In this document: positions 735 to 18,883 of the stretch, piece after piece | How the letters are laid out: each line of letters opens with the position of its first letter | Position numbering within the stretch: the first letter of the stretch is position 1 | Assembly (NCBI RefSeq): GCF_018324205.1 | Contig: NZ_AP023356.1 | Coordinates: 1,426,001 to 1,490,000 of the forward strand | DNA length: 64,000 nt | Reading direction: 5' to 3' | From: Actinoplanes ianthinogenes | Lineage (GTDB): Bacteria > Actinomycetota > Actinomycetes > Mycobacteriales > Micromonosporaceae | Notes under the pieces: generated by a model | Told to the model about the DNA's origin: nothing | The model's input: only the letters and a program-made list of their open reading frames with translations | Database searches by the model: none | Translations under genes and position numbers: made by a program

Positions 735-747
735 GGTCGTACAAAAT
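735..747 (+). promoter_or_regulatory. AT-rich 13-mer GGTCGTACAAAAT, copy 1
   Basis: This 13-mer is identical to one at 24785-24797, and a near copy (GTCGTACAAGAT) lies on the minus strand at 29798-29787. In such GC-rich DNA an exact AT-rich repeat of this length is unlikely by chance. Function is unknown; this copy sits at the 3' end of the minus-strand flavoprotein gene rather than in front of a gene. Confidence 0.3.
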
Positions 748-753
748 ACGGTT

Positions 754-1428
754 TTAAGGAAGTAAACCGACAGCCGCCTCCCAGCTGAAGGCACGGCTGT
801 CGGTCAGGCGGACGCCGGCGGACCGAAGCACAGCGAGGTTGCCGGCGAAGGCGGGGTGCGCGGCCAGCTCGGGTTTGACGTGTACGGCGGCGACGATCGG
901 GATGTCGCTGCTCAGGTACTCGTTGAGGAGACCGACGGCCAGGTTGTCGTTCACGCCGGTGGCCCACTTGTTGAGGGTGTTGAACGTGGCCGGAGCGACC
1001 AGGATGGCGTCCGGGGTGAGCTCGGGCCACGGTTCGTCGGGGAGCGGCATGCGATGCAGCAGCGGCCGGCCGGTCCGCTCGGCGACGTCGCCGAGGAACG
1101 GCCAGCTGGCGGCGGTCGGCGTGGCCAGCACGGTGATCTGCCAGCGCCGGCCCACCGCCCTCGGCCCCTCCCCCGGCGGCCGAGCGCCCGCCCGCCCATC
1201 CCCCGCCACCCGAGCGCCCGCCTGCCCATCCCCCGCCACCCGAGCGCCCGCCTGCCCATACTCCGCCGGCCGAGCGCCCGCCTGCCCATCCTCCGGCGGT
1301 CTCTCGCCCACCGGCCGATCGTCTCGTGGCCGACCGTCCGGCGGCCCGCTCTGGAGTAGGTCGATCAGCTCGCCGATCCGCCGCAGCGGGGTCGCCGCGC
1401 ACACCACCAACAGCAGTTGATCAGTCAC
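754..1428 (-). CDS. Flavoprotein, phosphopantothenoylcysteine decarboxylase-like fold, with an internal decapeptide repeat
   Basis: This encodes 224 residues from a GTG start at 1428 (MTDQLLLVVCAATP). The N-terminal LLVVCAATPLRRIGELIDLL and the later segments TVLATPTAASWPFL, LPDEPWPEL, ILVAPATFNTLNKWATGVND and IPIVAAVHVKP match the HFCD flavoprotein fold: the FMN-binding PATFNTxNKWATGxxD stretch is diagnostic. Such proteins bind FMN and decarboxylate cysteine-type substrates, or act as uncharacterised flavoproteins in actinomycetes. Residues about 37-86 are an inserted low-complexity segment of 10-residue repeats (GQAGARVAGD-like), probably an exposed loop between the first helix and second strand. 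The substrate is unknown. A longer open frame extends to 1494, but it lacks the family's usual start. Confidence 0.8.
   Translation of the reverse strand: MTDQLLLVVCAATPLRRIGELIDLLQSGPPDGRPRDDRPVGERPPEDGQAGARPAEYGQAGARVAGDGQAGARVAGDGRAGARPPGEGPRAVGRRWQITVLATPTAASWPFLGDVAERTGRPLLHRMPLPDEPWPELTPDAILVAPATFNTLNKWATGVNDNLAVGLLNEYLSSDIPIVAAVHVKPELAAHPAFAGNLAVLRSAGVRLTDSRAFSWEAAVGLLP
1170..1319 (-). repeat. 30-bp in-frame minisatellite inside the flavoprotein gene, 5 units
   Basis: Five 30-bp units run head to tail, and the middle ones are nearly identical. Each encodes ten residues of the type GQAGARVAGD. Because 30 is a multiple of three, copy number can change without a frameshift. The tract falls in a region where related flavoproteins have a short loop. 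Confidence 0.85.
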
Positions 1429-1584
1429 ATACCGCAGGTTAGGCCCTGTCTGGCCGATCCTGCGAGGCTGCGGCACGGCCGTCGCTCGATCCACCGAGCG
1501 GGACCTAATCCTCAGCGGTTATTCAGCGACTTCACAACCAACCGCGTCACAGTGGGAGCACATCCCCCGACCTGGAGGTAGGTA

Positions 1585-1857
1585 ATGGGTCTACTCGGCA
1601 TCATCAGCCTGGCCCTGCTCATCGTGCAGTTCCTGCTGATCGCCCGCGCGGTGCTGGACTGGAGCGCGGTGCTGGCCGGTCCGGCGATGCCCGGCTCGTT
1701 CCGCTCGCGGCTGTCCGGCGGCGTGTTCGCGGTGACCGAGCCGATCCTGGCCCCGGTGCGGAAGCTGATTCCGCCGCTGCGGGCCGGTGGAGTGTCCATC
1801 GATCTGGCGTTCATCATCGTGTTCTTCGCGGTCACGATCCTGCACAGCCTGATCTGA
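1585..1857 (+). CDS. YggT family integral membrane protein
   Basis: This small protein has 90 residues and two hydrophobic helices, at about 3-20 and 72-88. Between them lies the family signature FAVTEPILAPVRKLIPPL (the consensus is a TEP-hydrophobic-P-R-x-IPP stretch). A strong ribosome site, GGAGGTAGGTA, lies just before the ATG. YggT proteins are inner-membrane proteins that often sit near cell-division genes (sepF, divIVA) in actinobacteria. Here no division gene is adjacent, so this is probably a stray paralogue. Its precise role is unknown. Confidence 0.85.
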   Translation: MGLLGIISLALLIVQFLLIARAVLDWSAVLAGPAMPGSFRSRLSGGVFAVTEPILAPVRKLIPPLRAGGVSIDLAFIIVFFAVTILHSLI

Positions 1858-1949
1858 CCCGTCCCGCGACTTTGCTCTGATCCCACGCGCAGCCTGATCC
1901 GACCTGCCCGCGCCGTCCCCGCCCCTGGGATGGCCTGGGCGGTCCCAGG

Positions 1950-2215
1950 CGCCCTGGCCGGCCCGGGCCGTCTCCCCCTGACGAGCCCGGGCCGCTCCAG
2001 GCCCCACTCCGGCCCGGGCCGTCTCCCCCGTGACGAGCCCGGGCCACTCCAAACCGTGACGGGTACCGGCCGCGTCCGCCCGACGCGTCGGGGCCGCTTC
2101 ACGCCCCTGACCGGCCCGGGCCGTCCTCCCCCCGTGACGAGCCCGGGCCACCCCACCCCCCTCACCGGCCCGGGCCCCTTTCCCCCCGAGGAGCCCGGGC
2201 CACCCCGACTCTCCC
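1950..2215. repeat. GGCCCGGGCC-type palindromic repeats downstream of yggT
   Basis: Four degenerate units of roughly 50 bp each carry a CCGGCCCGGGCC half and a GA(C/G)GAGCCCGGGCC half about 20-25 bp apart (near 1961-1993, 2011-2044, 2111-2149 and 2164-2203). Each unit could fold into a strong hairpin. The array starts about 100 bp 3' of the yggT stop. Several frames are open through it, but they look like composition artefacts. Confidence 0.75.
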
Positions 2216-2244
2216 GACATGACGGTCGGTCCTCTGACGACAGT

Positions 2245-2274
2245 GAGCCGCGCATCCCACCGGATGCGCGGCTC
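2245..2274. terminator. Perfect 13-bp stem-loop upstream of the SnoaL-like gene
   Basis: GAGCCGCGCATCC and GGATGCGCGGCTC form a perfect 13-bp stem around a CACC tetraloop. It has no U-tract, as is usual for actinobacterial terminators. It lies just before the promoter of the next gene and could insulate it from read-through out of the repeat tract. Confidence 0.6.
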
Positions 2275-2282
2275 GTCCGTGT

Positions 2283-2312
2283 TTGGAGTCGTTGTTCCCG
2301 TGCGCATAGGGT
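2283..2312 (+). promoter_or_regulatory. Candidate leaderless promoter for the SnoaL-like gene
   Basis: TTGGAG and TAGGGT are separated by 18 bp. The -10 hexamer ends 6 nt before the GTG start codon at 2319, so the transcript would begin at or next to the start codon. No ribosome-binding site is visible. Confidence 0.5.
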
Positions 2313-2318
2313 CGATGT

Positions 2319-2693
2319 GTGACCGATTCGCACAGGGAACTCTTCGAACGGTATGTCTACGCCGGCGCGATCACCCGCAACCCCGACGCGATCGCCGATC
2401 TGTTCACCGAGGACGGGATCTTCGAGGCGCCACTGGTCTCACCGGGCGGCCCGTTGCCGAGCCGGCTGGCCGGGCGGGAGGCGATCCGGGCCGGGATCGG
2501 CGCCTTCCAACAGGATGCTCCCGGGCCGGTCGACCCGGCACGCAGCGGATATGTGCTGCACGAGACCGCCGACCCGGGCGTCTTCATCGCCGAGATCGAC
2601 GCGGTGTCCGGCGGTGTCGAGATGTCCCTGGTCCAGATCTTCCGGATCCGCGACGGCCAGATCGCGCATCTCCGCGACTACTTCCGCGCCTGA
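2319..2693 (+). CDS. SnoaL-like / NTF2-fold protein
   Basis: This encodes 124 residues from a GTG start. The pattern is that of the SnoaL-like NTF2 fold: an N-terminal helix (ELFERYVYAGAITRNPDAIADLFTED, shown by its key parts LFERY, AGAI and LFTEDG), then FEAPL, LAGREAIRAGIGAF, and a C-terminal strand pair SLVQIFRIRDGQIAHLRDYF. Such proteins are small hydroxylases, isomerases or ligand-binding proteins, and the substrate cannot be predicted. The neighbour on the right is convergent. The start is supported by the promoter hexamer 6 nt upstream. Confidence 0.75.
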   Translation: MTDSHRELFERYVYAGAITRNPDAIADLFTEDGIFEAPLVSPGGPLPSRLAGREAIRAGIGAFQQDAPGPVDPARSGYVLHETADPGVFIAEIDAVSGGVEMSLVQIFRIRDGQIAHLRDYFRA

Positions 2694-2722
2694 CACAAAG
2701 CCCGGCGCCGGCCGGCCCGGCG

Positions 2723-3373
2723 TCAGAGCAGCGTGGCGATCGAGTCGCCCCGAGCCCCGTCGAGCGGCGTCGACACATCGCAGAAACGCCACTTCTTGTC
2801 ACTGCCCCGGACCAGCGAGATCCGGACCGTCGTCGACTTCAACTCCGGGAGGTAGGACAGCACCTCCGTCTGCTTACCGGTCTTGCGCGGGGTGATCGCC
2901 TCGGCCGGGCGGCTCACCCGGATGTCCAGGCTCGCCCGATCGCCGAACGGGGCCGCCCCCGCCGACGGGGACGGCCAGCGCACCGCGGTCACCGTCGGCG
3001 TGCTGGTCGTCACGTAGGCGCCCTGGTCGATCAACGACTGCGTCTCGGCGATCAACTGGTTGGCCGCGCTGCACCCCGGGGCCGCGATGGTGGTGACCTT
3101 CGACGGGTCCGGGTTCGCGATCAGCCATTGGCCGTATTTGATCAGGGAGGCGACGACCACGGGCAGGTTCGTGCCGGTGTTCGACAGTCCCGGGGCGGAG
3201 GTGTTCGGCACCGCGGGGGTCTGCACGAACGTGCTGGTCGGGGCCGCCTGGATCGGCGGCGCGGAGGTCGCGGTGACGGCGGGGGCCGAGGTCAGCGCGG
3301 CGCACCCGGTCAGGGCGCAGGCCGAGGCGACGACAGCGGTCAGCCGCAGGGCACGACGGGGGGTCGGCTGCAT
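2723..3373 (-). CDS. Secreted lipoprotein of unknown function
   Basis: This encodes 216 residues, with an Arg-rich n-region, a hydrophobic core and the lipobox L21-T-G-C24, followed by an Ala/Pro/Thr-rich linker to about residue 55. The mature domain has two cysteines that could pair (in APGCSAAN and WRFCDVS). I recognise no catalytic motif. The pattern (a conserved globular domain with a terminal beta-rich segment containing SLVRGSDKKWRFCDV) suggests an extracellular binding protein. The ribosome site GGAGGA precedes the ATG. It sits between a convergent SnoaL-like gene and a PadR regulator on the same strand. Confidence 0.75.
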   Translation of the reverse strand: MQPTPRRALRLTAVVASACALTGCAALTSAPAVTATSAPPIQAAPTSTFVQTPAVPNTSAPGLSNTGTNLPVVVASLIKYGQWLIANPDPSKVTTIAAPGCSAANQLIAETQSLIDQGAYVTTSTPTVTAVRWPSPSAGAAPFGDRASLDIRVSRPAEAITPRKTGKQTEVLSYLPELKSTTVRISLVRGSDKKWRFCDVSTPLDGARGDSIATLL

Positions 3374-3464
3374 CAGGGTTCCTCCGGTACGACGTTTCGC
3401 GACCAGTCAGGTCGGTACCGGAGGGCGCCGCTTGAGGAATCGAGACGCAGTCGAACCGGGGCGC

Positions 3465-3791
3465 TCAGGTGGTCTGCGGCTCGGGGAGGCCGAGGCCCCG
3501 GGTCAGCTGCCGGTTGAGCTCGGCGAGCTCGGCGCGGGCCGCGACGGCTCCGTCGCTGGTGAGCCGGTAGTACTTGCGGGCCGGGCGACCGGCGGCGACC
3601 GGGTCGAGAGTCTCCCAGCGGGCCTCGATCCAGCCGGCTCTCTCCAGCCGCATCAGGATCGGGTAGAGCGTGCCGCTCGGATAACCGCTGTCACGCATGA
3701 GATCGAGCCCATACCGATCCGCGGCCGGGTCCTCGAGAAACGCGGCCAGCACCCTGGCCACGGCGGTCGTGGCCCGGATCGGCTTGATCAT
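3465..3791 (-). CDS. PadR family transcriptional regulator
   Basis: This encodes 108 residues. The winged-helix domain is clear: VARVLAAFLEDPAADRYGLDLMRDSGYPSGTLYPILMRLE, with the family hallmark S/YPSGTLYPxLxRLExxGWI, then the wing GRPARKYYRLTSDG. The short C-terminal helix (ARAELAELNRQL) matches subfamily-2 PadR dimerisation helices. The ATG at 3791 is preferred over an in-frame TTG nine bases upstream. The AT-rich region in front contains a 14-bp palindrome within the likely promoter (TTGATC at 3853-3848, TATGTA at 3831-3826), suggesting autorepression. The target gene is not evident, since the next gene upstream lies beyond a repeat array. Confidence 0.9.
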   Translation of the reverse strand: MIKPIRATTAVARVLAAFLEDPAADRYGLDLMRDSGYPSGTLYPILMRLERAGWIEARWETLDPVAAGRPARKYYRLTSDGAVAARAELAELNRQLTRGLGLPEPQTT

Positions 3792-3835
3792 GCCGACCAA
3801 CCTACCGCACCCCGGATAGCGAATCTACATAGGGT

Positions 3836-3849
3836 TCTTCCAGGGAAGA
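3836..3849. promoter_or_regulatory. Palindrome TCTTCC-AG-GGAAGA in the padR promoter
   Basis: The 6-bp arms are perfect with a 2-nt centre. The palindrome lies between the likely -35 and -10 elements of padR. The position suits an autoregulatory operator; binding is inferred, not shown. Confidence 0.4.
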
Positions 3850-4004
3850 TCAAATTCAACGAGCACATACTTCATTGACGCAGGTCCGCGCGGGTGCGGA
3901 TCGCATGCTCCCGCGCGGGCCGGAGGCGGCGATCTGGCCGCTGACGCGTCCAAACCAATCGCCACCTCCTTCACTGTCCGCGGCCGGTCCCGGAGATCAA
4001 CCCC

Positions 4005-4337
4005 CAGCTGGCCCCCACCGCCCTATCCCGTGCCCGGATAGGGCCACCAACACCAGCCCGACACCCCCCAGCTGGCCCCCAGCGCCCTATCCCGTTCCCG
4101 GATAGGGCCACCAACACCAGCCCGACACCCCTCGGCTGGTCCTCAGCGCCCTATCCCGTGCCCGGAAAGGGCCACCAGGACCAGCCCGACACACCCCGGC
4201 TGGCCCCCAGCGCCCTAACCCAACCCCGGAAAGGGCCACCAGGACCAGCCCGACACCCCCCGGCTGGCCCCCAGCGCCCTATCCCGTGCCTGGATAGGGC
4301 CATCAGGACCAGCCGGGCACTCCTCGGCTGGCCCCCA
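4005..4337. repeat. 64-bp palindromic tandem repeat array D: 5 full units plus a stub
   Basis: Units begin at 4005, 4069, 4133, 4197 and 4261 with a stub at 4325, an exact 64-bp spacing throughout. Each unit reads C(A/G)GCTGG, then GCCCTATCC, a 5-7-nt loop, GGATAGGGC, and finally CCAGCC-CGACAC. The inner arms (CCCTATCC with GGATAGGG) and outer arms (GGCTGG with CCAGCC) can pair into one long hairpin per unit. The array begins about 20 bp beyond the stop codon of the minus-strand acetyl-xylan esterase gene. The same unit with the same period recurs at 11276-11885. No coding role is supported. The rest of the 3792-4355 gap holds only the padR promoter region and GC-rich sequence. Confidence 0.9.
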
Positions 4338-4355
4338 CGATCGATGCCACCGGGC

Positions 4356-5330
4356 CTAGAAGACGTGTTTCGCGGCGAACTCCAGGGCTTCCACGTCGAA
4401 GAACGAGCGGCCGCCGTCGTGGCCGTCCCACTCGTAGACCCTGATGTCCTTGGCGCCGGGGATCTCGTTGTAGGCGGCGAAGACCCCGGACGGCGGGCAC
4501 ACCTGGTCCATCAGGGCGGTGGAGAACAGGGCCGGCGCGGTGACCCGGCGGGCCTGGTGGACCACATCGAAGTGGTCCAGGGTGGCGAAGGTCTGCTCGG
4601 CCCGGTCCGCGTTCGGCCGGAGGAACTGGACGATCTCCTGGAACGGGAAGCTGTCGGTGATGGTGACCGCGCGCCGGATGTCGCAGAGGAACGGCACCCC
4701 GGCCACCACGGCGGCGACCCGGTCCGGGACCAGGCCGGCGGCCGCGATCGACAGCGCGCCGCCCTGGCTCTTGCCGGTGGTCACCAGCCGTGCCGCGTCC
4801 ACACCGGGCAGCTCGGCGGCGGTCTCGACGGCCCGGGCCGCGTCGGTGAACAGCCGCCGGTAGTAGTGCGTCTCGGGCGAGCGGACCCCGCGAGTCATGA
4901 AGCCGGGCGCGGACGGGCCGGCGCCGTCCGGGTCGACGTCCGGGGTGCCGCCGCCGCGCCAGTTGCCGCCCTGGCCGCGGGTGTCCATCACCAGGTGCGC
5001 ATAGCCCGCGGAGGCCCAGACCAGCCAGTCGATCGGCAGGCCACGGCCACCGCCGTACCCGATGAACTCGACCGCGATCGGCAGCGGACCGGACGCGCCG
5101 GCCGGGACGTTGAGCCACGCCTTGATCGGCTGGCCGGCGAAGCCGGTGAAGGTCACGTCGTAGCTGGTGATGCCGCGCAGCGGGGTGGTGACCTCGGTGA
5201 GCTCGACCGGCTTGGCGGCGGCCCGCGCCTCGTCGAGCGTGCGGGACCAGAACTCGTCGAACCCGTCCGGCACCGGCGTGGCGGAGCGGTAGGTGCGCAA
5301 CTCGGCGAGCGGGAGATCAAAATGGGCCAT
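4356..5330 (-). CDS. Acetyl-xylan esterase / cephalosporin-C deacetylase family (AXE1)
   Basis: This encodes 324 residues, the usual length of the AXE1 (CE7) family of cytoplasmic alpha/beta hydrolases that deacetylate xylo-oligosaccharides and other acetyl esters. The features are the N-terminal MAHFDLPLAELRTYR, the RGQGGNWRG oxyanion-side loop, the nucleophile motif GKSQGG (Ser of G-x-S-Q-G), an acidic residue near FSTALMDQVCPP, and the terminal His in EWDGHDGG. There is no signal peptide, so it probably acts on imported oligosaccharides. It is divergent from recD2. The promoter TTGGGA-N17-TACCGT lies 6 nt before the ATG, which fixes the start. Function fits with the xylanase, GH51 and GH43 genes elsewhere in the window. 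Confidence 0.9.
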   Translation of the reverse strand: MAHFDLPLAELRTYRSATPVPDGFDEFWSRTLDEARAAAKPVELTEVTTPLRGITSYDVTFTGFAGQPIKAWLNVPAGASGPLPIAVEFIGYGGGRGLPIDWLVWASAGYAHLVMDTRGQGGNWRGGGTPDVDPDGAGPSAPGFMTRGVRSPETHYYRRLFTDAARAVETAAELPGVDAARLVTTGKSQGGALSIAAAGLVPDRVAAVVAGVPFLCDIRRAVTITDSFPFQEIVQFLRPNADRAEQTFATLDHFDVVHQARRVTAPALFSTALMDQVCPPSGVFAAYNEIPGAKDIRVYEWDGHDGGRSFFDVEALEFAAKHVF

Positions 5331-5336
5331 GCGGCA

Positions 5337-5375
5337 ACGGTAGGCGACCGTGGCCGCGCTCCCAAGGGGGTCTGC
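5337..5375 (-). promoter_or_regulatory. Leaderless promoter of the acetyl-xylan esterase gene
   Basis: On the minus strand TTGGGA (5375-5370) and TACCGT (5342-5337) are 17 bp apart, and the -10 ends 6 nt before the ATG. No ribosome site is present. This is one of the better-matched examples of the leaderless pattern in this window. Confidence 0.6.
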
Positions 5376-5404
5376 CGACAGCCGAATCCGGCGGGGAGGG
5401 CACG

Positions 5405-7606
5405 ATGGTCGCCATGTCCGGTGCGGCACAGACCTCCCGCCCGGCGCCGCACGTCCTGGAAGCGGTGCTGGAGCGGCTGACCTATGTGAACGAGGAGACC
5501 GGTTACACGGTCGCCCGGGTGGCCACCGCGAAGAGCGGGCCGGACCTGCTGACCGTGGTCGGGGCGCTGCTCGGCGCGCAGCCCGGGGAGAGTCTGCGGC
5601 TGTCCGGCTGGTGGACGTCGCATCCGCAGTACGGCCGCCAGTTCGAGGTGGTCTCGTACACCACCGTGCTGCCGGCCACCGTGCAGGGCATCCGGCGTTA
5701 TCTGGGATCCGGGCTGGTCAAGGGCATCGGCCCGGTCTTCGCCGAGCGGATCGTGGACCACTTCGGACTGGACACGCTCCAGATCATCGAGGAGTCGCCG
5801 GCCCGGCTGATCGAGGTGAACGGGCTCGGCCCGAAACGCACCGCGAAGATCACCGCGGCCTGGGCCGAGCAGAAGGCGATCAAGGAGGTGATGCTGTTCC
5901 TCCAGGGGGTCGGCGTGTCCACCTCGATCGCGGTCCGGATCTACAAGAAGTACGGCGACGCGTCGATCTCGGTGGTGAAGAACAGCCCGTACAAGCTCGC
6001 CTCGGACGTCTGGGGCATCGGGTTCAAGACCGCGGACACGATCGCGCAGGCGGTCGGCATCCCGCACGACAGTCCCGAACGGGTGAAGGCGGGTCTGCAG
6101 TACACGCTGTCCCAGGCGACCGATAACGGTCACTGCTTCCTGCCGGCCGACGATCTCATCGCGGATGCCGCCAAGATCCTCGAGGTTCCCGCCGGACTCG
6201 TCCCGGCCTGTCTGGACGAATTGGTCACCGAGGAGGGTGTGGTCCGCGAGGACGACCACGTCTATCTCGTGCCGTTTCATCGCGCCGAAGTGTCGCTCGC
6301 CTCGCAACTCGTCCGTCTGCTGCGGGAGAAATCGGACCGCATGCCGCATTTCGCGGAGGTCGACTGGAGCCGGGCCCTCTCGTGGCTGCACCGGCGCACC
6401 GGCTCCACCCTCGCCCCGGAGCAGGAGGAGGCGGTCAAGCTCGCGCTCACGTCGAAGGTGGCGGTGCTCACCGGCGGCCCCGGCTGCGGCAAGAGCTTCA
6501 CCGTCCGCTCCATCGTCGAGCTCGCCGCCGCCAAACAGGCCAAGATCCAGCTGGTCGCGCCGACCGGCCGCGCCGCCAAACGCCTCGCCGAACTCACCGG
6601 CCATCCCGCCGCCACGGTTCATCGCCTGCTCAAACTCCAGCCCGGCGGGGACGCGAGCTACGACCGCGACAACCCGCTCGACGCCGACCTGCTGGTCGTC
6701 GACGAGTCCTCGATGCTCGACCTGATCCTGGCGAACAAGCTGGTCAAGGCGATCCCGCCGGGTGCGCACCTGTTGCTGGTCGGCGACGTCGACCAGCTGC
6801 CGAGCGTCGGCGCCGGCGAGGTGCTGCGCGACCTGCTCGCCGCCGACGTCATCCCGCGGGTCCGGCTCACCCAGATCTTCCGGCAGGCCGCGGAGAGCGG
6901 CGTGGTCACCAACGCGCACCGGATCAACCAGGGCCGGCCGCCGCTGCTCGACGGGATGAAGGACTTCTTCCTGTTCCCGTGCGACGACACCGAGGCGACC
7001 GCGGCGCTCACCGTGGACGTGGCGTGCACCCGGATCGCCCGCAAGTTCGGCCTGGACCCACGCCGCGACGTGCAGATCCTCACCCCGATGCACCGCGGGC
7101 CGGCCGGCGCCGGCGCTCTCAACACGCTGTTGCAGCAGGAGCTGACCCCGGGCCGCGAGGGGCTGCCTGAGCGCCGGGTCGGCGGGCGGGTGTTCCGGGT
7201 CGGCGACAAGGTCACCCAGATCAGGAACAACTACGACAAGGGGGTTGCGGGCGTCTTCAACGGCACGGTCGGCGTCGTGACCGGGCTGTCGCCCGAGGAG
7301 CAGACCCTTACGGTACGCACGGACGAGGACGAGCTGATCGAGTACGACTTCGACGAGCTGGACGAGCTCGCGCACGCGTATGCGATCACGATCCACCGGT
7401 CGCAGGGTTCGGAGTACCCGGCCGTGGTGATCCCGCTGACCACCAGCGCGTGGATGATGCTCCAGCGCAACCTGCTCTACACCGCGATCACCCGGGCGAA
7501 GAAGCTGGTCGTGCTGGTCGGCTCGCGCAAGGCCCTGGCCGCCGCGGTGCGCACGGTCGGCGCGGGCCGGCGGCACACCGCGCTGACCGAGCGCCTCACC
7601 GTGTAG
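5405..7606 (+). CDS. recD2: RecD2-type ATP-dependent DNA helicase
   Basis: This encodes 733 residues, full length for RecD2, an SF1 5'-3' DNA helicase that acts without RecBC in DNA repair. The N-terminal OB-like region carries NEETGYTVARV. Next come helix-hairpin-helix segments (GLVKGIGPVFAERIVDHFG, VNGLGPKRTAKI). The helicase core has Walker A GGPGCGKSF near residue 360, Walker B LLVVDESSM near 430, GDVDQLPSVGAGEVL (motif III), RLTQIFRQ, the C-terminal SH3-like domain and HRSQGSEYP, then motif VI NLLYTAITRAK. The ATG at 5405 has GGGAGG five bases upstream and is preferred to the ATG at 5414. The stop codon is followed immediately by a 29-bp repeat array. Confidence 0.95.
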   Translation: MVAMSGAAQTSRPAPHVLEAVLERLTYVNEETGYTVARVATAKSGPDLLTVVGALLGAQPGESLRLSGWWTSHPQYGRQFEVVSYTTVLPATVQGIRRYLGSGLVKGIGPVFAERIVDHFGLDTLQIIEESPARLIEVNGLGPKRTAKITAAWAEQKAIKEVMLFLQGVGVSTSIAVRIYKKYGDASISVVKNSPYKLASDVWGIGFKTADTIAQAVGIPHDSPERVKAGLQYTLSQATDNGHCFLPADDLIADAAKILEVPAGLVPACLDELVTEEGVVREDDHVYLVPFHRAEVSLASQLVRLLREKSDRMPHFAEVDWSRALSWLHRRTGSTLAPEQEEAVKLALTSKVAVLTGGPGCGKSFTVRSIVELAAAKQAKIQLVAPTGRAAKRLAELTGHPAATVHRLLKLQPGGDASYDRDNPLDADLLVVDESSMLDLILANKLVKAIPPGAHLLLVGDVDQLPSVGAGEVLRDLLAADVIPRVRLTQIFRQAAESGVVTNAHRINQGRPPLLDGMKDFFLFPCDDTEATAALTVDVACTRIARKFGLDPRRDVQILTPMHRGPAGAGALNTLLQQELTPGREGLPERRVGGRVFRVGDKVTQIRNNYDKGVAGVFNGTVGVVTGLSPEEQTLTVRTDEDELIEYDFDELDELAHAYAITIHRSQGSEYPAVVIPLTTSAWMMLQRNLLYTAITRAKKLVVLVGSRKALAAAVRTVGAGRRHTALTERLTV

Positions 7607-7746
7607 GCCGCGGGGCGCTTCGGCTCGTCAGCCGCGGGGCCGGGCGCTTCGGCTCGTCAGCCGCGCGGCGGGGCGCTTCGGCTCGTCAGCCGCGCGGCGG
7701 GGCGCTTCGGCTCGTCAGCCGCGCGGCGGGGCGCTTCGGCTCGTCA
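7607..7746. repeat. 29-bp tandem repeat array starting right after the recD2 stop
   Basis: Units start at 7607 (24 bp), 7631, 7660, 7689 and 7718. They end in GGCGCTTCGGCTCGTCA and contain a GCCGCGCGGC palindrome; a degenerate unit continues to about 7794. The array fills the space between recD2 and the convergent membrane-protein gene, whose last codons overlap the degenerate unit. It may act as a bidirectional terminator. Confidence 0.85.
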
Positions 7747-7784
7747 GCCGCGAGCCGGGCTGGTAGGTCGCCGGGCCGGGCGCC

Positions 7785-8966
7785 TCAGCTCGTCGGCTCG
7801 GGCTGCGCCTGCGGCTGCGGCTGCGGGACCGGCGCGGCGGCGATCGCCGCGCCGACCGCGTGCAGGCCGCGCAGCCGGCGCTCCAGCTCGGCCGCGTTCA
7901 CCCCGGAGATCTTCGACTTCGGGTCCTCCCAGATCAGCCCGCCGTCCGCGCTGAACTCGTCGGGATGCCGCGAGTCGACGACCGCGCGCAGCCCCGGCCA
8001 GACCGCACGCCACCCGGGCGCCGAGCCGGACGCCAGCCGGTCGGTGATCGCCACGTCCTCGACCTGGAGCAGCGGCACCGCGCCGGGCAGCGCCATCGCC
8101 CACGCGGTACGCCCGACCCCCTTGCCGTCCCGATAGGTGAAGACCACGAACGGCATGCCCTCGTAGACCCCGTAGACCAGGTACTCCGCGAACGCCTGGC
8201 CGGCCTTGAGCCCCGGCAGCCGCAGCCGGGCCACCAGGTCGTGGTCGAACCGGCGATAGAGAAAGCCACGCTTCCTGGCCCACTGCCGCCGTCCCACCCG
8301 GGTGCGCCAGATGTCCACCAGGCTTCCGCAGCCGGTCAGCGCGAAGGCCAGGGTGATCAGCATGATGCCCCAGGCCCAGAGGTTCTCGTCCTCGACCACG
8401 AAGACGAACGCCACGAAGGAGGCGAGCGCCATGATCAGGACCAGCACCACCGTGCCGGCGACGCTCTCCGCGCGGGGCCGCTTGCCGACCGTCTCGCCGA
8501 GCGGGTGCAGCGCCGGGTGCGCCGGGACCGGGTGCAGCGGCGGGCCGGGCCGGAACCCGGCCGACGCCCTCTCCGCGGCGGCCTCGCGCCGGGCGGTGCG
8601 CACCGCGCTGACCGGCACCCCGAGGATCAGCAGCACGCCGAGCCCGGCGGCGCCCCAGCCGACCTTGCGGATCAGGGCGTGGTGCTCGGTGCGGCCCTCG
8701 ACCGAGTACTTCTCCCGGATCTCGGCCATCTCGTCGGCGTACTTGCGGGTGCCGGTCTCCCGGCCGTTGGTGTACGACACGCACTCGTCGCCGGCGCTCA
8801 TCTCCTGGCCGCCGCAGTCCACCTTCTGCGAGTAGATCATGTGGTCCGAGTCGGCCTGGATCTCCTCGGCGGTCAGCGTGTGCCGGTCCACCGTCCACAG
8901 CCCGCCGGCCACGATGCCCAGGCCGATCACCAGCTGGACGATCCATCCGAAAAGTCTTCTGCGCAC
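7785..8966 (-). CDS. Membrane protein of unknown function, four predicted helices
   Basis: This encodes 393 residues. Hydrophobic helices lie at about 6-25, 102-122, 168-190 and 196-214. Between the first two is an extracytoplasmic loop with a cysteine pair (KVDCGGQE, DECVSYTNG). After the fourth helix a cytoplasmic domain of about 170 residues follows (from RKRGFLYRRFDHDLVARL), ending in a Pro/Gln-rich tail. I do not recognise the family. The layout suggests an actinobacterial envelope protein with a soluble sensor or binding domain. It is convergent with recD2 across the 29-bp repeat array. Confidence 0.7.
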   Translation of the reverse strand: MRRRLFGWIVQLVIGLGIVAGGLWTVDRHTLTAEEIQADSDHMIYSQKVDCGGQEMSAGDECVSYTNGRETGTRKYADEMAEIREKYSVEGRTEHHALIRKVGWGAAGLGVLLILGVPVSAVRTARREAAAERASAGFRPGPPLHPVPAHPALHPLGETVGKRPRAESVAGTVVLVLIMALASFVAFVFVVEDENLWAWGIMLITLAFALTGCGSLVDIWRTRVGRRQWARKRGFLYRRFDHDLVARLRLPGLKAGQAFAEYLVYGVYEGMPFVVFTYRDGKGVGRTAWAMALPGAVPLLQVEDVAITDRLASGSAPGWRAVWPGLRAVVDSRHPDEFSADGGLIWEDPKSKISGVNAAELERRLRGLHAVGAAIAAAPVPQPQPQAQPEPTS

Positions 8967-9191
8967 GGCGACCTGTATAGCACCCGCCGCCGGCCGGCCG
9001 CGGCACCCCCATTAGCACCATTTGCCGCCGGCCGGGCCGAAATGGGCAGATCCCGGCCGAATGGCCGGTGCGAGAAGACACCCGGACAACGAATTCCACT
9101 GAACACGGCGAGGGGGAATCAAATCGCGAGAGGCGTCGCGGAAATATTCTTTTCCCAACGCACCAACCGATTCGATAAACGGGGGTTATTC

Positions 9192-9830
9192 ATGTTCCGT
9201 CAACTGACCGCCGGCGCGGCAATGCTCGCTTCTCTCGCCGTCGCCGCACCCGCGCAGGCCTCGCCGCTGCCCACTCCGGACGAGATGATGATCATCAACG
9301 TGGTGAACGCGAACGGCTCCGGCTGCCCGGACAAGTCGGCGAAGATCACGGTGTCGCCGGACAACACCGCGTTCACCGTGACCTACTCGGACTACACCGC
9401 CCAGGTCGGCCCGGAATCATCACCACTGGATTTCCGAAAGAATTGCCAGATCGCGCTGGACATCAAGGTGCCGTCCGGATTCACGTTCGCGATCGCCAGC
9501 GCGGACTACCGCGGATATGCCAGCCTGGCGCGCGGCGCGTGGGCCCAGGAAGCCGCCAACTACTACTTCCAGGGGCATTCTCAGACGACCCGGATCGAGC
9601 ACAACTTCCGCGGGCCGTTCGACGACAACTGGCAGCGCACCGACCAGGTGGGAATCGCCTCGCTGAGCTTCCTGCCGTGCGGTGAGCGCCGTTACCTGAA
9701 CATCAACACCGACCTGCGGGTCAACCGCGGCTCGTCGGACGCGCACAAGTACACCAGCTTCATCTCGATGGACTCCACCGACGCCGCGATCAACACGGTG
9801 TACCGGGTCGCCTGGAAGAAGTGCTTCTAG
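9192..9830 (+). CDS. Secreted DUF4360 family protein
   Basis: This encodes 212 residues with a Sec signal peptide (MFRQLTAGAAMLASLAVAAP, cleaved after AQA) and a mature region typical of DUF4360. Family hallmarks are NGSGCPDKSAKITVSPDNTAFTVTYS in part (GSGCP and DNTAFTVTY), SPLDFRKNCQIALDIKVP in part (RKNCQI), FAIASADYRGYASL in part, and the terminal cysteines. DUF4360 proteins are small extracellular proteins of fungi and actinomycetes whose function is unsettled. The ATG has GGGGG six bases upstream. The stop codon TAG overlaps the stop of the convergent gene in a shared CTAG. Confidence 0.85.
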   Translation: MFRQLTAGAAMLASLAVAAPAQASPLPTPDEMMIINVVNANGSGCPDKSAKITVSPDNTAFTVTYSDYTAQVGPESSPLDFRKNCQIALDIKVPSGFTFAIASADYRGYASLARGAWAQEAANYYFQGHSQTTRIEHNFRGPFDDNWQRTDQVGIASLSFLPCGERRYLNINTDLRVNRGSSDAHKYTSFISMDSTDAAINTVYRVAWKKCF

Positions 9831-11056
9831 TTGTCGAAGGCCGCCCACGGGCTCTCGGTGGGCGGGCGTGAGCCGGTCGTCGCCACGACGGCCGGCTCCG
9901 CTGTCCGCGCCACCGCGATCCGGTGCGCGATCAGCGCGGCCAGGGCCGTGGTGATCGGCACCGCGGAGATCAGGCCGATCGTGCCGACCGCGCTGCGCAC
10001 CAGCTCCTGGGCGATCAGCTGCCCGGTGAGCAGCTCGCCGACCGGGGTGCCGCCGGTCGCGAAGAGCAGCATCAGCGGCAGCGACGCGCCGGCGTAGGCG
10101 AGCACGATCGTGTTGATCACCGAGGCGATGTGCGCCCGGCCGATCCGGGTGGCCGCGCCGTACAGGCTGCGGAAGCCGTACGCCGGATTCGCCAGTGCCA
10201 GCTCGGTGACCGTGGCCGACTGCGTGACGGTCACGTCGTCGAGCACGCCGAGCGAGCCGATCACGATGCTGGCCAGCAGCAGGCCCTGCATGTTGACCGC
10301 GCCCTGGGTGATCGACAGGAAGTTCGAGGTGTCGTCGGCAACGCCGGTGAGGTGGACGGCGGCGACGCTGATCTCGGCGAGCACGGTGGTGATGACCAGG
10401 CTGGTCAGGGTGCCGGCGACGGCGATCGTGGTGGTGATGGTCAGGCCGTGCGTCAGGTACAGCACGGTCAGCATGATCGCGGCGGAGCCGACCACGGCGA
10501 CCAGCATCGGTGACCGGCCGTCCAGGATCGCCGGGACGATGAAGAACAGCAGCACGCCGAACGTGACGGCGAGCCCGGCCAGGGCGGTCAGCCCGCGCCA
10601 GCGGCCGAAGGCGATCACCGCGAGGGCGAACGCCGCGCCGAGGATCCACAACTCGCGGGAGCGCTGGTGATCCGAGATCGAGTAGGTGAGGCCGCCGCCC
10701 TCGTCCTCCAGGCCGATCAGCACCACCCGGTCACCGGCCTCGATGGTGGGCGCGCCCGGCCCGTACGGCAGGCCGGTGCTGATCACCTCGCCGTTCGCCA
10801 GCCGCACCACGGCGGTGCCGCACCCGGTGGGCTGCGTCTCGCCCTCCGGGACCGGGGCGCACGCGGCCGGCGTCGTCGTCTGGACCACGCCGTTGACCGG
10901 GGCCGGGCCCGCGGCGTTGTCCGACTTCGGGGCGTCCCGGGGCCAGAGCAGCAGCATGCCGAGCGCGGTCAGCAGCACCGCCGGAATCAGCAGTGCCAGG
11001 GTCAGCTTGCGCGCCTTGGGCAGCGGGTCACTGGGATGGTGGTGGTGACCACCCAT
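9827..11056 (-). CDS. YibE/F family membrane protein
   Basis: This encodes 409 residues. A His-rich cytoplasmic N-terminus (MGGHHHHPSDP) precedes a first transmembrane helix. An extracytoplasmic OB-like domain follows (ANGEVISTGLPYGPGAPTIEAGDRVVL in part: GDRVVLIG), then a block of about seven helices with the YibE/F signatures GLTALAGL, LVTITTxIA-type repeats, NMQGLLLASIVIGSLGVLDDVT in part (GSLGVLDDVTVTQ) and GRAHIAS. YibE/F proteins are polytopic membrane proteins of unknown transport function. GAGGAG precedes the ATG. The gene ends in the shared CTAG with the convergent DUF4360 gene. Confidence 0.9.
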   Translation of the reverse strand: MGGHHHHPSDPLPKARKLTLALLIPAVLLTALGMLLLWPRDAPKSDNAAGPAPVNGVVQTTTPAACAPVPEGETQPTGCGTAVVRLANGEVISTGLPYGPGAPTIEAGDRVVLIGLEDEGGGLTYSISDHQRSRELWILGAAFALAVIAFGRWRGLTALAGLAVTFGVLLFFIVPAILDGRSPMLVAVVGSAAIMLTVLYLTHGLTITTTIAVAGTLTSLVITTVLAEISVAAVHLTGVADDTSNFLSITQGAVNMQGLLLASIVIGSLGVLDDVTVTQSATVTELALANPAYGFRSLYGAATRIGRAHIASVINTIVLAYAGASLPLMLLFATGGTPVGELLTGQLIAQELVRSAVGTIGLISAVPITTALAALIAHRIAVARTAEPAVVATTGSRPPTESPWAAFDN

Positions 11057-11275
11057 GGGCAGGACTCCTCAGGTCAGCGTCGACGACCCGCCGAACCTAC
11101 CGGTGCCCGGTCGTCCCCACTCCCGCACGGGTGCTTTTCTTCCGAGGGGGCAAGAACGCGGTCCGCCCCGTCCCGAAGCGCTCTCGCACCGGCCGGCCAT
11201 GGTCAGCGCGCCACGCCACGAAGCCGCCAGCCATGGTCGCAGCCGCCCGTCACGGCCTGCCCGCTCGCAGTCTCC
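11057..11275. other. Upstream region of the YibE/F gene, no gene seen
   Basis: This stretch holds the ribosome site and presumed promoter of the YibE/F gene (minus strand) and GC-rich sequence with no convincing ORF. With the repeat array at 11276-11885 it makes a gap of 900 bp without a gene. Confidence 0.6.
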
Positions 11276-11885
11276 GGCTGGCGCTCGCGGCCCTATCCAG
11301 GCGCTCGATAGGGCCATGAGCGCCAGCCCGACGGTCACGGGCTGGCCCTGGTGGCCCTATCCGAGCGTGCGACAGGGCCATGAGCGCCAGCCCGACAGTC
11401 GCGGGGCTGGTCCTGGCGGCCCTATCCGAGCGTGCGACAGGGCCATGAGCGCCAGCCCGACAGTCACGGGCTGGCCCTGGTAGCCCTATCCGGGCGCTCG
11501 ATAGGGCCGTGAGCGCCAGCCCGACAGTCACGGGCTGGCCCTGGCGGCCCTATCCGGGCGATAGGCCAGAGCGCGCCAGCCCGACGGTTGCGGGCTGGCC
11601 CTGGTAGCCGGCCGTGAGCGCCAGCCCGACGGTCACGAGCTGGCCCTGGTAGCCCTATCCGGGCGCTCGATAGGGCCGTGAGCGCCAGCCCGACAGTCAC
11701 GGGCTGGCCCTGGCGGCCCTATCCGGACGTGCGACAGGGCACTGAGCGCCAGCCCGACAGTTACGGGCTGGCCCTGGCGGCCCTACCCGGACGTGCGACA
11801 GGGCCCTGAGCGCCAGCCCGACGGTCACGGGCTGGCCCTGGCGGCCCTATCCGGGCGCTCGATAGGGCCGTGAGCGCCAGCCGAG
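11276..11885. repeat. 64-bp palindromic tandem repeat array F: 10 units
   Basis: The GGCTGG (once AGCTGG) that opens each unit lies at 11276, 11340, 11405, 11469, 11533, 11593, 11638, 11702, 11766 and 11830. Most spacings are 64 bp, with one of 65, one of 60 and one of 45 (a unit that lost its inner stem). Units read GGCTGGCCC, then GGCCCTATCC, a GGGCGCTC-type loop, GATAGGGCC, then CCAGCCCGAC. The inner and outer arms are complementary. Architecture and period match the array at 4005-4337. The array lies about 80 bp 3' of the minus-strand ADC-like gene. Confidence 0.9.
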
Positions 11886-11964
11886 GGTTTGGGTTTGCGG
11901 CCGGGGCGTGCAGGCCGCGAGCAGCCACGACGGACGGGGCGATCGGACGCTGGGAGGGGCTTTC

Positions 11965-12621
11965 TCAGTGGGGGCGGGCGGCGGCGCGGTCCTTTGCTGA
12001 GCGGCCGAAGACCAGCCAGAAGTCGGTGACGGCGAGGTTCAGCACGGGGCGGCGCCCGGCGAGGTAGGCGAGGGGGCCGTCCGGGTCGGGGCGCCACGCC
12101 GCGTTGCTCGTACGCAAACCGGCGCGGCCTCGCACCGGGGTCCGCCGCACCTGGTCGCCGAGAGCCTGAGCCACCGTGAGCCCCAGCGGGAAGCGGCCCG
12201 GAACCCGCCGTTTCAGCCGGATCAGAGCGGACCCGATCGGGGCGCCCCCGGGCGCCGCGGCCGTCGCGTCGACCAGCTCGTCGTCCGCGTCGAGGGTGAA
12301 CTCGGCCAGTTCCTTGGGGATGCCCCAGAGCCGGCGACCGCCGTCGCGGGAGGCGACGCTGTCGACCCAGATGTCGGTGATGCTGACCCGCGGCCGGCCG
12401 TGCTCGTGGGTCAGCACCGCGCTGAGCAGCTCCCGGTAGTGCAGGACGCCGCCGGGCTGGTAGTCGACCCAGGCGGCGCCGACCGCGGCCCGCCCGCCGA
12501 ACGACAACGGCCGTGCCGCCGCGCCCAGCACCTCGGGCAGCGGCGGCACGGCACGCATCGGGATCAGGAAGACCGACAGGTACATCTGTCCGCGCAGGTG
12601 CCAGGGCTCGGGCGGGTACAT
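11965..12621 (-). CDS. Acetoacetate decarboxylase family protein
   Basis: This encodes 218 residues. The ADC-like fold is indicated by EPWHLRGQMYLSVFLIP in part, a strand pair around GAAWVDYQPGGVLHYRELL in part (DYQPGGVLHYREL), and RRLWGIPKELAEF, where the lysine in IPKE corresponds to the Schiff-base lysine of classical acetoacetate decarboxylases. Actinobacterial members at this length are mostly uncharacterised lyases acting on beta-keto acids or related ligands, so the substrate is open. It lies just beyond the 64-bp array and upstream of the MCP gene on the same strand (the MCP gene is 24 bp to its right). Confidence 0.8.
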   Translation of the reverse strand: MYPPEPWHLRGQMYLSVFLIPMRAVPPLPEVLGAAARPLSFGGRAAVGAAWVDYQPGGVLHYRELLSAVLTHEHGRPRVSITDIWVDSVASRDGGRRLWGIPKELAEFTLDADDELVDATAAAPGGAPIGSALIRLKRRVPGRFPLGLTVAQALGDQVRRTPVRGRAGLRTSNAAWRPDPDGPLAYLAGRRPVLNLAVTDFWLVFGRSAKDRAAARPH

Positions 12622-12645
12622 GCCCCTAACACTGGCATCGATGGG

Positions 12646-14217
12646 TCAGTAACGGAAGCGGGACACCAGGCTCTGCAACTGGCCGGCGGTGACGGTGAGC
12701 TCGTCGGCCGCCCGGCGGGTGTCGCCCATCGTCTCGGTGGTCCGCTGGGTGGCCGCGGAGACCCCGGTGATGGTGGCCGCGATGTCCCCGGCGCCGCCGG
12801 CCGCCTCGGTCAGCGTCCGGTTCATCTCCTGGGTGGTCGCGGTCTGCTCCTCGACCGCCGAGGCGATGGTCAGCTGGAGGCCGTTGATCCGCTCGATGAT
12901 CTCGCTGATCTCCTCGATCGCCATCACCGCGCCGCTGGTGTCCGCCTGGATCGACTGCACCCGCTGGGAGATGTCCTCGGTCGCCTTGGCGGTCTCCTGG
13001 GCCAGGTCCTTCACCTCGCCGGCCACCACCGCGAAGCCCTTGCCCAGCTCACCGGCGCGGGCCGCCTCGATGGTCGCGTTCAGGGCGAGCAGGTTGGTCT
13101 GCTCGGCGATGCTGGTGATCACCTTGACGACGGTGGCGATCTCGGCGGACGACTCGCCGAGCCGGGCCACGATCTGGTTGGTGGCCGCGGCGGCCTGCAC
13201 CGCCTGCACCACCACCTGGGTGGCCTCGGAGGTGGAGACGCTGATGTCCCGGATCGCCGAGCCCATCTCCTGCGCGCCGGCCGAGACGAACTGCAGGTTG
13301 TTGGAGACCGTCTCGGCGGCCGCGGAGACCGTGCCGGCCTGCGAGGACGCCTCGGTGGCGGCCGCGTCGACGGCGCCGGAGACCGCGGTCAGCTGACCGG
13401 CGGCGTGCTGGAGGGTGGTGGCGCTGCCGGCCAGCTGCACGACATCCTCGCGGAGCCGGGCGATGCCCCGGTCGAGCGCGGCGGCCATCTGGCCGACCTC
13501 GTCCTGGCTGGTCACGCCGGAGGTGCGGGTGAGGTCACCCTCGGCCAGGCCCTCGGCAAGCTTGGAGACGCCGCGGACCGAGGCCCGCACGCTGCCCGCC
13601 ACCCGGAAGCCGATCAGCAGGCTGAGCAGCACGCCGGCGGCGAGCACCGCGGCGATCGTCCAGGTGGCCGTGTTGGCCGCGGACTGCGCGTCGGTGATCT
13701 GCTGCTCGGCCAGCTTGGCGGCCTGGGCCTGGAGCGACTGCGCGTCCTCGAGGAGCGCGCCGTGCAGCTTGGTGTACTGGGCCAGGCCGGCGTTCATGTC
13801 GGCTTCGGTGTTCGGGGTCGACGGCACCGCGGTCATGAACTTCATGTAGGCGGCCCAGTCGTCCTTGGCCTTGGCCACGGTGACGTTGCCGGGCAGCTGC
13901 TCGCCGAGGCGGGCCAGCGCGCCGTCGACCGCCGCCTTGTTGGCGTTCATGACCTCGAGGATCTGCTTGGCGATCTTCGGATACAGCTGGACCGCCGAGG
14001 CGTTGCCGGCGTACGCCTCGATGTTCTGGCTGTAGTCGGTGACCGCGGACCCGATCGCGAGCGACTGGTGCTGCGCGTTCTTCGCCTTGTCGTTCAGGCT
14101 GCGCACCGTGTTGATCGACATGCCGCCCACGATCAGGCCGCCGATGGTCGCGGTCAGGGCCGCCGCACCGATCTTCGTCCGCAAAGAGCGGTTGTCGAAC
14201 GCCCCACTCAACCCCAT
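12646..14217 (-). CDS. Methyl-accepting chemotaxis protein
   Basis: This encodes 523 residues. The order is a transmembrane helix (about 17-38), an extracellular four-helix-type sensor domain of about 150 residues, a second helix (about 188-210), a HAMP segment to about 265, and a signalling domain to the end. The hairpin tip is clear: [19 protein letters not shown]. The C-terminus lacks an NWETF-type methyltransferase tether. The ligand is unknown. An AGAAGG ribosome site precedes the ATG. The gene lies 59 bp downstream of dhaL on the same strand and could be cotranscribed with dhaKL, hinting at triose or glycerol-related taxis, but this is only positional. No che genes are nearby. Confidence 0.95.
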
Positions 14218-14276
14218 CGCCGTACCTTCTCTCAGCAGTGTCTGATACCCGCTGAATCGGCACGGTTTGCCCTCAG

Positions 14277-14897
14277 TTAAGAAACGTCGGCCAATGCTTG
14301 AAAGATCAGGCCGGTGGAGGTGGCTCCTGGGTCCCGATGTCCGATACTGCGTTCGCCCAGGTAGGAGGCCCGGCCCTTGCGGGCCTGCATCGGCACGGTG
14401 GCCTCGGCGCCCGCCTCGGCGGCCCGGGACGCCGCCGCGGCCGCCTCGGCCAGATCCGCTCCCCCGGCCACCGCTTTCTCGAACGCGTCCAGGGCCGGGG
14501 TGTACGCGTCGACCAGGGTCTTGTCCCCGGGCGCCGCCCCGCCCAGCTTGCGGACCGCGTCCAGGCCGGCGTGCAGCGCCGTGGCCAGGTCGGCCGGCTG
14601 CACCTCGGCGGTGGGCGGCAGGGCCTTGCCGGCCGAGCGCAGCGCGGTGCCGTACAGCGGGCCGGACGCGCCGCCCACCCGGGACATCAGCGTGGCGCCG
14701 GCCTTGACCAGCACGTCCGACACCGTCTCCGGCGGCGTTTTCTCCAGGGCGGCGACCACCGCGGTGAAGCCCCGGTTGAGGTTCACCCCGTGGTCGCCGT
14801 CACCGATGGCGGAGTCGAGCTGGGTGAGCCGGTCGGCGTCGGCCGCGATCAGGTCGGCGGCGGCCCGCATCCAGTCCCGGGCGAGTGCGACATTCAC
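14277..14897 (-). CDS. dhaL: Dihydroxyacetone kinase subunit DhaL
   Basis: This encodes 206 residues. It is the ADP-binding subunit of the PTS-dependent dihydroxyacetone kinase, which phosphorylates DHA bound to DhaK. The Mg-ADP ligands are visible as D28, D33 and D35 in [24 protein letters not shown] and the C-terminal [19 protein letters not shown] in part ([12 protein letters not shown]) are DhaL signatures. The GTG start lies 3 nt after the dhaK stop, implying translational coupling. It acts in the cytoplasm with DhaK and DhaM. Confidence 0.95.
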
Positions 14898-14900
14898 TGT

Positions 14901-15893
14901 TCAGGCACCCCAGCGCAGTCCGGGGGTACGCGCCGGCGCGTCCCAGAGGCGGATCATCTCGTCGGTGGCCTGGCACAGGGTGAGCGACATCCCGGCCATG
15001 TCCAGGCTGGTCACGTAGTTGCCGATGAGCTGCCGGGCGATCCGGACACCCCGGTCCTCGAGGTGTTTCGCCAGCTCGCCGTAGATCAGGTACAGCTCGA
15101 TCAGCGGGGTGCCGCCGAGCCCGTTGACCAGCACGATCACCGGGCCGGGGAACGGCTTGGCGTCCAGGATCGCGTCCAGCGCCGAGCGCACCAGCTCCCT
15201 GGCCGGGCGCAGTTTCTCGCGGCGGCGGCCGGGCTCGCCGTGGATGCCGACACCGGCCTCGATCTCGTCGGCCGGCAGGTCGAAGCCGGGACGACCGGCG
15301 GCCGGGGTGGTGCCGGCGGTCAGCGCGTACGCAAAGGATCCGGAATTGGTGTTGACCTCGCGGCCGATCGCGGCCACCTCGGCGAGCTTGCCGCCCTCCT
15401 CGGCCCGCGCGCCGGCGATCTTCTCGACCAGCAGGGTGGCGCCGGTGCCGCGCCGGCCGGCGGTCCAGGTCGAGTCCTCCACCGCCACGTCGTCGTCGAC
15501 CAGCACGGTCTCGACGCTGATCCCCTCGTCGGTGGCGAGCTCCGCGGCGAGCTGGAAGTTCATCACGTCGCCGGTGTAGTTCTTGACGATGTGCACCACG
15601 CCGGCGCCACCGTCGACGGCCTTGGTGGCGGCCAGGATCTGATCCGGCACCGGGGAGGTGAAGACCTCGCCGGGGCAGGCCGCGTCGAGCATGCCGGGAC
15701 CGACGAAACCGCCGTGCAGCGGCTCGTGCCCGGAACCGCCGCCGGAGACCAGGCCCACCTTGCCGGGGCGTGGCGCGTCGGCCCGCACGATGTATTGCTC
15801 GTCGATGTCCACCCGCAGCTCCGGGTGGGCGGCGGCGATCCCCGCCAGGGCCTGCGCCACCACGTCGGCGGGATCGTTGATGAATTTCTTCAC
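14901..15893 (-). CDS. dhaK: Dihydroxyacetone kinase subunit DhaK
   Basis: This encodes 330 residues. It is the substrate-binding subunit of PTS-type DHA kinase. The residues line up with E. coli numbering: H56 in [13 protein letters not shown]109 in NYTGD, and H218 in [10 protein letters not shown], the histidine that binds dihydroxyacetone covalently. The start is GTG with GGGAG upstream. dhaK-dhaL form one transcript, divergent from dhaM and the HPr gene across 66 bp. Product DHA-phosphate enters glycolysis. Glycerol dehydrogenase is not nearby. Confidence 0.95.
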
Positions 15894-17297: not shown

Positions 17298-17399
17298 TCC
17301 CGCATTCACGAGCTGGACGTAACGGCGGCTGCACGCCAGCCGCCACTCAGCGGACGGCCGGGAGGCGGTGCGGTGTTCGTACCGTAAGTGGGTTTGATC

Positions 17400-18883
<1,484 letters not shown>

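Follow-up and report, generated by a model that had tools for sequence, protein, structure and literature searches.

A 53-nt REP/BIME-like hairpin repeat of the genus Actinoplanes, biased to gene 3′ ends and amplified into tandem arrays in Actinoplanes ianthinogenes

The bacterial interspersed mosaic elements (BIMEs) known as BIME-2 in Escherichia coli are clusters of palindromic units between genes, miniature inverted-repeat transposable elements (MITEs) combine high copy number with terminal inverted repeats, and some families of repetitive extragenic palindromes (REPs) occur without a Y1 transposase in the same genome. REPs such as the species-specific ones of Pseudomonas putida are short, dispersed, extragenic, and palindromic, are frequent between convergent genes, and contain sites for gyrase, Pol I, and IHF (PMC1525189). 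Intrinsic terminators of high-GC actinomycetes are a further point of comparison because they are long, stable, GC-rich hairpins at gene 3′ ends; in a comparison of 13 species, those of Streptomyces are reported to be the longest and most stable, and to contain few U (PMC12207403). Here we analyze a stretch of 64,000 nucleotides of Actinoplanes ianthinogenes (contig NZ_AP023356.1, positions 1,426,001 to 1,490,000; “the window”), in which two tandem arrays of palindromic units, D and F, belong to a hairpin repeat family with hundreds of copies in this genome. This family is probably a clade-specific, REP/BIME-like extragenic hairpin that spreads and is either tolerated or used as a bidirectional 3′-end element, with tandem amplification in A. 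ianthinogenes by local duplication.

The unit consists of a 53-nt palindrome with GGCTGG and CCAGCC ends, followed by a spacer of 10 or 11 nt. Across the whole genome (9.9 Mb in a single contig, around 72% G+C), the bare skeleton GGCTGG-N41-CCAGCC was found 768 times compared to 9 times for a reversed control, and when skeleton lengths of 43–63 nt were allowed, 768 of the 910 matches were exactly 53 nt long. The strict inner palindrome GCCCTATCC..GATAGGGC gave 194 forward and 169 reverse matches, many of them at sites that match on both strands, and none for the control, while a covariance model built from 15 window units gave at least 150 genome matches, every listed one with E <= 2.2e-7. An iterated profile search of 69 regions (68 around matches and one from the contig start; 0.79 Mb including the window) then returned 509 units in 81 clusters of 1–13 units, with two or more units in 76 of them. 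Because further arrays lie outside these regions (e.g., at around 32 kb, 119 kb, and 440 kb), which cover 326 of the 768 exact skeletons, the figure of 81 clusters is a lower bound and biased to the strongest matches. At the contig start itself, dnaA was not seen in the list of open reading frames of the first 8 kb, for which no family scan was made.

The frame of the unit is well kept. Both end anchors were recognized in 489 of the 509 units (20 are without an anchor), and 475 of these 489 palindromes are exactly 53 nt long and 14 of other lengths, as delimited by a unit finder that favoured 53 nt wherever several ends fitted. Within the inner arms, GCCC and GGGC are each present at >=99% across units, though the search profile favours both; the TATCC/GGATA part of the inner arm is variable, and the 8-nt stretches that separate outer from inner arm are often mismatched in A. 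ianthinogenes units. Median folding energies were -31.4 kcal/mol for 475 units of this genome and -41.1 and -30.3 kcal/mol for 30 and 50 copies from its relatives G066 and G032, respectively. One copy at contig positions 322215–322267, more than 1 kb from any other exact skeleton listed, has a perfect 25-bp stem and may resemble the form from which the tandem unit descended.

A preliminary description of the window had placed two arrays of one repeat family at the positions of D and F (Table 1), amplified more than once, with units that run from GGCTGG through nested complementary arms and could form a hairpin within a hairpin. The arrays are indeed there, with five full units in D and ten in F: Tandem Repeats Finder gave a period of 64 for both, the GCTGG anchors of array D (4007, 4071, 4135, 4199, 4263, and 4327) are spaced by exactly 64 bp, and the steps between array F units are 64, 65, 64, 64, 60, 45, 64, 64, and 64. 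A single family amplified more than once is likewise what the 81 clusters reveal, so that the unit is not confined to D and F. Instead of the proposed start GGCTGG, D1, D2, and F7 begin with AGCTGG. As for the nested hairpin, 6 of 8 folds (obtained from six units, two of them folded on both strands) had z <= -3.4, including D3, an exact GGCTGG-N41-CCAGCC with z -5.1; two F units folded more weakly (z -2.3 and -1.7), most of the inner palindrome is missing from F6, and the 8 nt from outer to inner arm are unpaired in many window units. Rfam had no match at the gathering score in window positions 1–20000, and its best sub-threshold match in 3800–12000 was Twister-sister at 24.9 bits compared to a cut-off of 34. 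Four such sub-threshold Twister-sister matches (22–25 bits, same cut-off) lie on the minus strand of array F at 11307–11849 and are probably due to chance.

Units are 87.3% identical inside clusters and 77.0% between clusters, identity decreases from 0.897 for neighbours to 0.824 for units eight apart, and pairs at array edges are less alike (0.858) than interior pairs (0.910). Both trends fit local duplication.

The position of the clusters relative to genes, called with a simple custom codon-usage caller, is strongly biased. Overlap with a called gene does not exceed 20 nt for any of the 81 clusters, so that the family consists of short, many-copy, extragenic palindromes just like REPs and BIMEs. 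Clusters occupy 78 gaps (46 convergent, 28 tandem, and 4 divergent); the 129 gaps longer than 150 bp without clusters at the same loci comprise 22, 53, and 54, respectively. This amounts to an enrichment in convergent gaps (46/78 versus 22/129; odds ratio 7.0, Fisher p 9e-10) and a depletion from divergent ones (4/78 versus 54/129; odds ratio 0.075, Fisher p 1.2e-9). Between tandem gene pairs, the array is closer to the 3′ end in 21 of 29 cases (p 0.008). The pattern extends to three relatives, where none of 38 hairpin clusters lies in a divergent gap and one overlaps a called gene, while divergent gaps make up 23 of the 79 gaps longer than 60 bp at these loci; regions of G066 and G032 had been chosen partly for well-paired-looking hairpins. 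Placement at 3′ ends and in convergent gaps, rarely in promoter gaps, is also that of REPs and BIMEs, and this bias had been overlooked by the preliminary description.

By analogy to gyrase at E. coli BIME-2, the same convergent placement could reflect a site at the DNA level to which a topoisomerase or a nucleoid protein would bind where 3′ ends converge. It would agree with an inner core that is conserved as sequence across A. ianthinogenes units without covariation, and with the narrow choice of spacers, since spacers of 10 nt and 11 nt account for 182 and 187, respectively, of 409 neighbour distances (369 of 409 together). The resulting 63/64-bp step is suggestive of helical phasing, though spacers of 16–20 nt (9 of 409) fit one extra helical turn poorly. 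What speaks against such a site is that, in the loci read, related species have different cores and share GGCTGG/CCAGCC; a single conserved protein reading the core is therefore unlikely, and we consider this explanation quite improbable overall.

Directly before array D lies a structured element that the preliminary description had also missed, the leader element ld. A leader end is found within 10 bp of 34 of the 81 clusters, D included, of which 31 have the full length of around 133 nt and 3 the last part only; 47 clusters, array F among them, have no directly attached leader. In addition, 23 clusters carry a long trailer (matched by the profile up to at least position 105); in the trailers printed, the terminal sequence repeats the end of the leader in complete or shortened form. 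Full leaders lie in divergent gaps in 2 of 36 cases. In an alignment of 52 copies, from which the 5 most distant of 57 were excluded, compensatory changes affect 7 of the 30 pairs predicted for the leader stem. Within the genus, 36 of 67 genomes, that of A. ianthinogenes among them, contain leader matches at E 0.001 with at most 12 candidates scored per genome, and no array of the A. ianthinogenes type was seen behind the leader in the 19 relative loci printed. At one locus of A. ianthinogenes (L155, 4379500–4384000), leader, one unit, trailer, two units, and another trailer follow each other, and here the array-plus-trailer block is itself duplicated. In three loci of relatives (L146, L147, and L153), leaders form inverted, inward-facing pairs around 0.6–3.7 kb apart.

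A constant period and a leader-like element beside 34 of 81 clusters are reminiscent of clustered regularly interspaced short palindromic repeats (CRISPR) or another spacer-acquiring array. Such arrays are defined by variable spacers, while the spacers found here measure 10–11 nt and hardly differ within the arrays printed; in addition, the units are palindromes, and most clusters have no leader directly attached. An array of this kind is thus extremely improbable, in line with the preliminary description, which had already set the repeat apart from CRISPR.

Across the genus, 14 of 67 genomes, A. ianthinogenes included, are enriched in the 53-nt skeleton, with 28–768 copies (6–19 for reversed controls) compared to 0–17 copies in the remaining 53 genomes; no enrichment was seen in 233 genomes from elsewhere in the family Micromonosporaceae (0–11 copies). 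The covariance model matched in 20 of the 67 genomes, again including A. ianthinogenes. In G066, 272 of 557 matches to skeleton lengths of 43–63 nt have 53 nt, and 17 copies of 52 nt are among the rows listed. The best loci of ten relatives contain hairpins with the same ends and different stems, one of them 50 nt long. The hairpin is mostly single in G066 and G032 and tandem with a 63/64-bp step in A. ianthinogenes and G077; tandem arrays with period 63 or 72 were found at many loci of G077 and at a single locus in each of G014, G086, and G021. A few G077 and G014 units share pieces of an A. ianthinogenes-like core, so that the cores are not wholly unrelated. The strict core was found in 1 of 60 genomes searched, that of A. 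ianthinogenes, and was absent from 35 congeners and 24 others; as for REPs and BIMEs, the sequence is thus species-specific, with different cores in the relatives read. A scan of an 84,980-species collection, which may leave out A. ianthinogenes and near records, found the strict core in 32 scattered stretches of other genera with one palindromic site each, which were taken as chance without inspection. Searches of array F against plasmids and of the leader with array D against phages, possibly also without these records, gave no match.

Although stems differ between species, their arms remain complementary in some of them. At stem positions 7–23, pairing was 0.847 compared to 0.668 after shuffling in G066 (z 13.9; 30 listed of 272 copies) and 0.724 compared to 0.647 in G032 (z 7.9; 50 listed of 162 copies), using a shuffle that ignores kinship. 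The expectation of the preliminary description that covariation would preserve the arms is therefore borne out in these two relatives but not in A. ianthinogenes, where neither the window units nor the 53-nt units of the genome covary beyond shuffles. Altogether, pairing is kept where the hairpin is mostly single, and in the arrays of A. ianthinogenes it has decayed except for the outer and inner arms.

It is conceivable that this repeat is purely selfish or neutral, multiplying by some mobiliser or slippage and surviving only at gene 3′ ends without any function. Largely species-specific stems, the patchy copy number across the genus, and the decayed arms of the A. ianthinogenes arrays would all agree with this, and duplication alone explains homogenisation. 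Also the AXE1-PadR locus that harbours array D looks like an apparent empty site in G010, with neither leader nor unit and the PadR start around 55 bp past the AXE stop; G077 has an apparent leader remnant there without hairpin, unscored by the profile, and no unit of the A. ianthinogenes type, and G014 has a single palindrome with a different core. A functionless repeat sits less easily with the constancy of the 53-nt length despite stem divergence, with that of GCCC and GGGC (notwithstanding the profile's preference for them), and with the near-perfect compensated stems of G066, though self-templated repair of imperfect palindromes could perfect arms without selection. We regard this explanation as possible, if somewhat unlikely.

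A further trait associated with REPs and BIMEs is a Y1 (RAYT) transposase. The Pfam family Y1_Tnp had no match in the A. ianthinogenes genome, while 5 of 14 control genomes matched, and it was not found in G077 either. Among the 67 genomes of the genus, 21 encode Y1_Tnp, and its association with skeleton copy number is weak (p 0.022 for a threshold of >=9 copies, 0.027 for 20 or 28, and 0.060 for 60, without correction for kinship); no skeleton lay within around 1.5 kb of the Y1 gene at any of the 4 Y1 loci inspected. Since no Y1 transposase was found in this genome, we limit the label to “REP-like”. A more far-reaching idea, which we hold to be unlikely, is a mobile hairpin defined only by its frame, i.e., a length of 53 nt (also 52 nt in one species), GGCTGG/CCAGCC ends, and self-complementarity. 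Its stem would be rewritten with compensation both inside one genome and from one related species to the next. When a non-Y1 mobiliser copies the hairpin, one arm may serve as template for the other, and some species would build tandem arrays that wall off convergent genes.

Returning to a REP/BIME-like 3′-end element, fold energies and 3′ placement reveal stable hairpins at gene ends as for intrinsic terminators, and we infer a role in transcript termination. The hairpin would form in nascent RNA of either strand and contribute to ending or delimiting transcripts; copies located at gene 3′ ends would therefore be harmless or useful, and a tandem array, amplified via local duplication or unequal recombination, may act as a stack of weak terminators between genes. 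Short T runs follow some of the array-end units bordering a leader (e.g., CCAGCCGGGTTTTGATC in L050), and GGGTTTT follows one copy in a relative (L219). Compensatory change is also reported for Bacillus cereus terminators (PMC5381666).

Several observations weigh against this interpretation. Most printed flanks have no T run, and a pattern scan found 6 terminator-like sites in window positions 3000–13000, none of them inside D or F. In the literature, REPs are quoted as not being specific terminators (PMC1525189), and Rho or RNA processing is suggested as a possible source of most Streptomyces 3′ ends (PMC12207403). The arms of 427 distinct A. ianthinogenes units pair below shuffled expectation (0.624 versus 0.693; z -20.7), a deficit that a strict RNA-hairpin function does not predict and to which mixed unit orientation contributes. 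With regard to placement, the gap orientation counts rest on the custom gene caller, gaps with clusters are longer than those without (medians of 768–1179 versus 232–273 bp), partly because arrays lie inside them, and a merely tolerated repeat would give the same 3′-end placement.

Compared to the described systems, the family shares with REPs that it is short, dispersed, extragenic, palindromic, species-specific, and often between convergent genes, and it differs by stems that reach 25 bp, GGCTGG/CCAGCC ends on a frame of mostly 53 nt, the replacement of stem sequence between related species, and a genome in which no Y1 transposase was found. Palindromic units clustered between genes resemble BIME-2, though here one unit is repeated with a 63/64-bp step. 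Unlike intrinsic terminators of high-GC actinomycetes, the hairpin occurs in hundreds of copies of near-fixed length, with fixed ends, and in tandem. Its likeness to MITEs or other non-autonomous mobile repeats rests on copy number and inverted repeats, with no target-site duplication or parent transposon established here. Judged from search listings, with most subscription journals outside their coverage, no paper appears to describe such a family.

In the window, the nearest gene 3′ end is 42 bp from array D (AXE1-like gene) and 83 bp from array F (ADC-like gene), and the genes on the opposite sides are 206 bp and 220 bp away, respectively (Table 1). A 29-bp tandem repeat with 5.2 copies at 7610–7759, directly past the stop of a RecD2-like gene (5405–7606), is another gene-end array with a consensus unlike D and F. 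Further short-period tandem arrays (including periods of 15, 16, 30, 35, 39, and 51 bp) lie at 201–417, 1145–1299, 1952–2203, 30712–30845, 55297–55477, and 56164–56570. The periods of a 156-bp repeat (33793–34687; 5.7 copies) and an 18-bp repeat (32112–32325; 11.9 copies) are divisible by three, which suggests that these may be coding.

Table 1. Arrays, leader element, and neighbouring genes (window positions)
Feature	Positions	Strand	Description
PadR-like regulator gene	3465..3800	-	Pfam PadR E 5.1e-12; on the far side of ld and array D
ld leader element	3871..4003	+	133/134 profile positions, nhmmer score 129.1; directly before array D
Array D	4006..4337		five 64-bp units and a 12-nt stub
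Array D unit starts	4006, 4070, 4134, 4198, 4262
D3, example 53-nt palindrome	4134..4186		outer arm 10 bp, one inner-arm mismatch, 7-nt loop
AXE1-like (acetyl xylan esterase-like) gene	4356..5429	-	Pfam AXE1 E 6.6e-103; 3′ end faces array D
YibE/F-like gene	9827..11056	-	Pfam YibE_F E 4.3e-67; 220 bp from array F
Array F	11276..11882		ten units, two shortened; without leader element
F1	11276..11328		-45.3 kcal/mol, z -7.7; best paired among six folded window units
ADC-like (acetoacetate decarboxylase-like) gene	11965..12621	-	Pfam ADC E 2.7e-11; 3′ end faces array F

With the same frame mostly single in some species, tandem in others, and not enriched in further congeners, this family constitutes a natural experiment within one genus. 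It makes testable how hairpin repeats spread in genomes that yield no match to a REP-type transposase, whether they end transcripts in bacteria with U-poor terminators, and how a stem can change yet stay paired.

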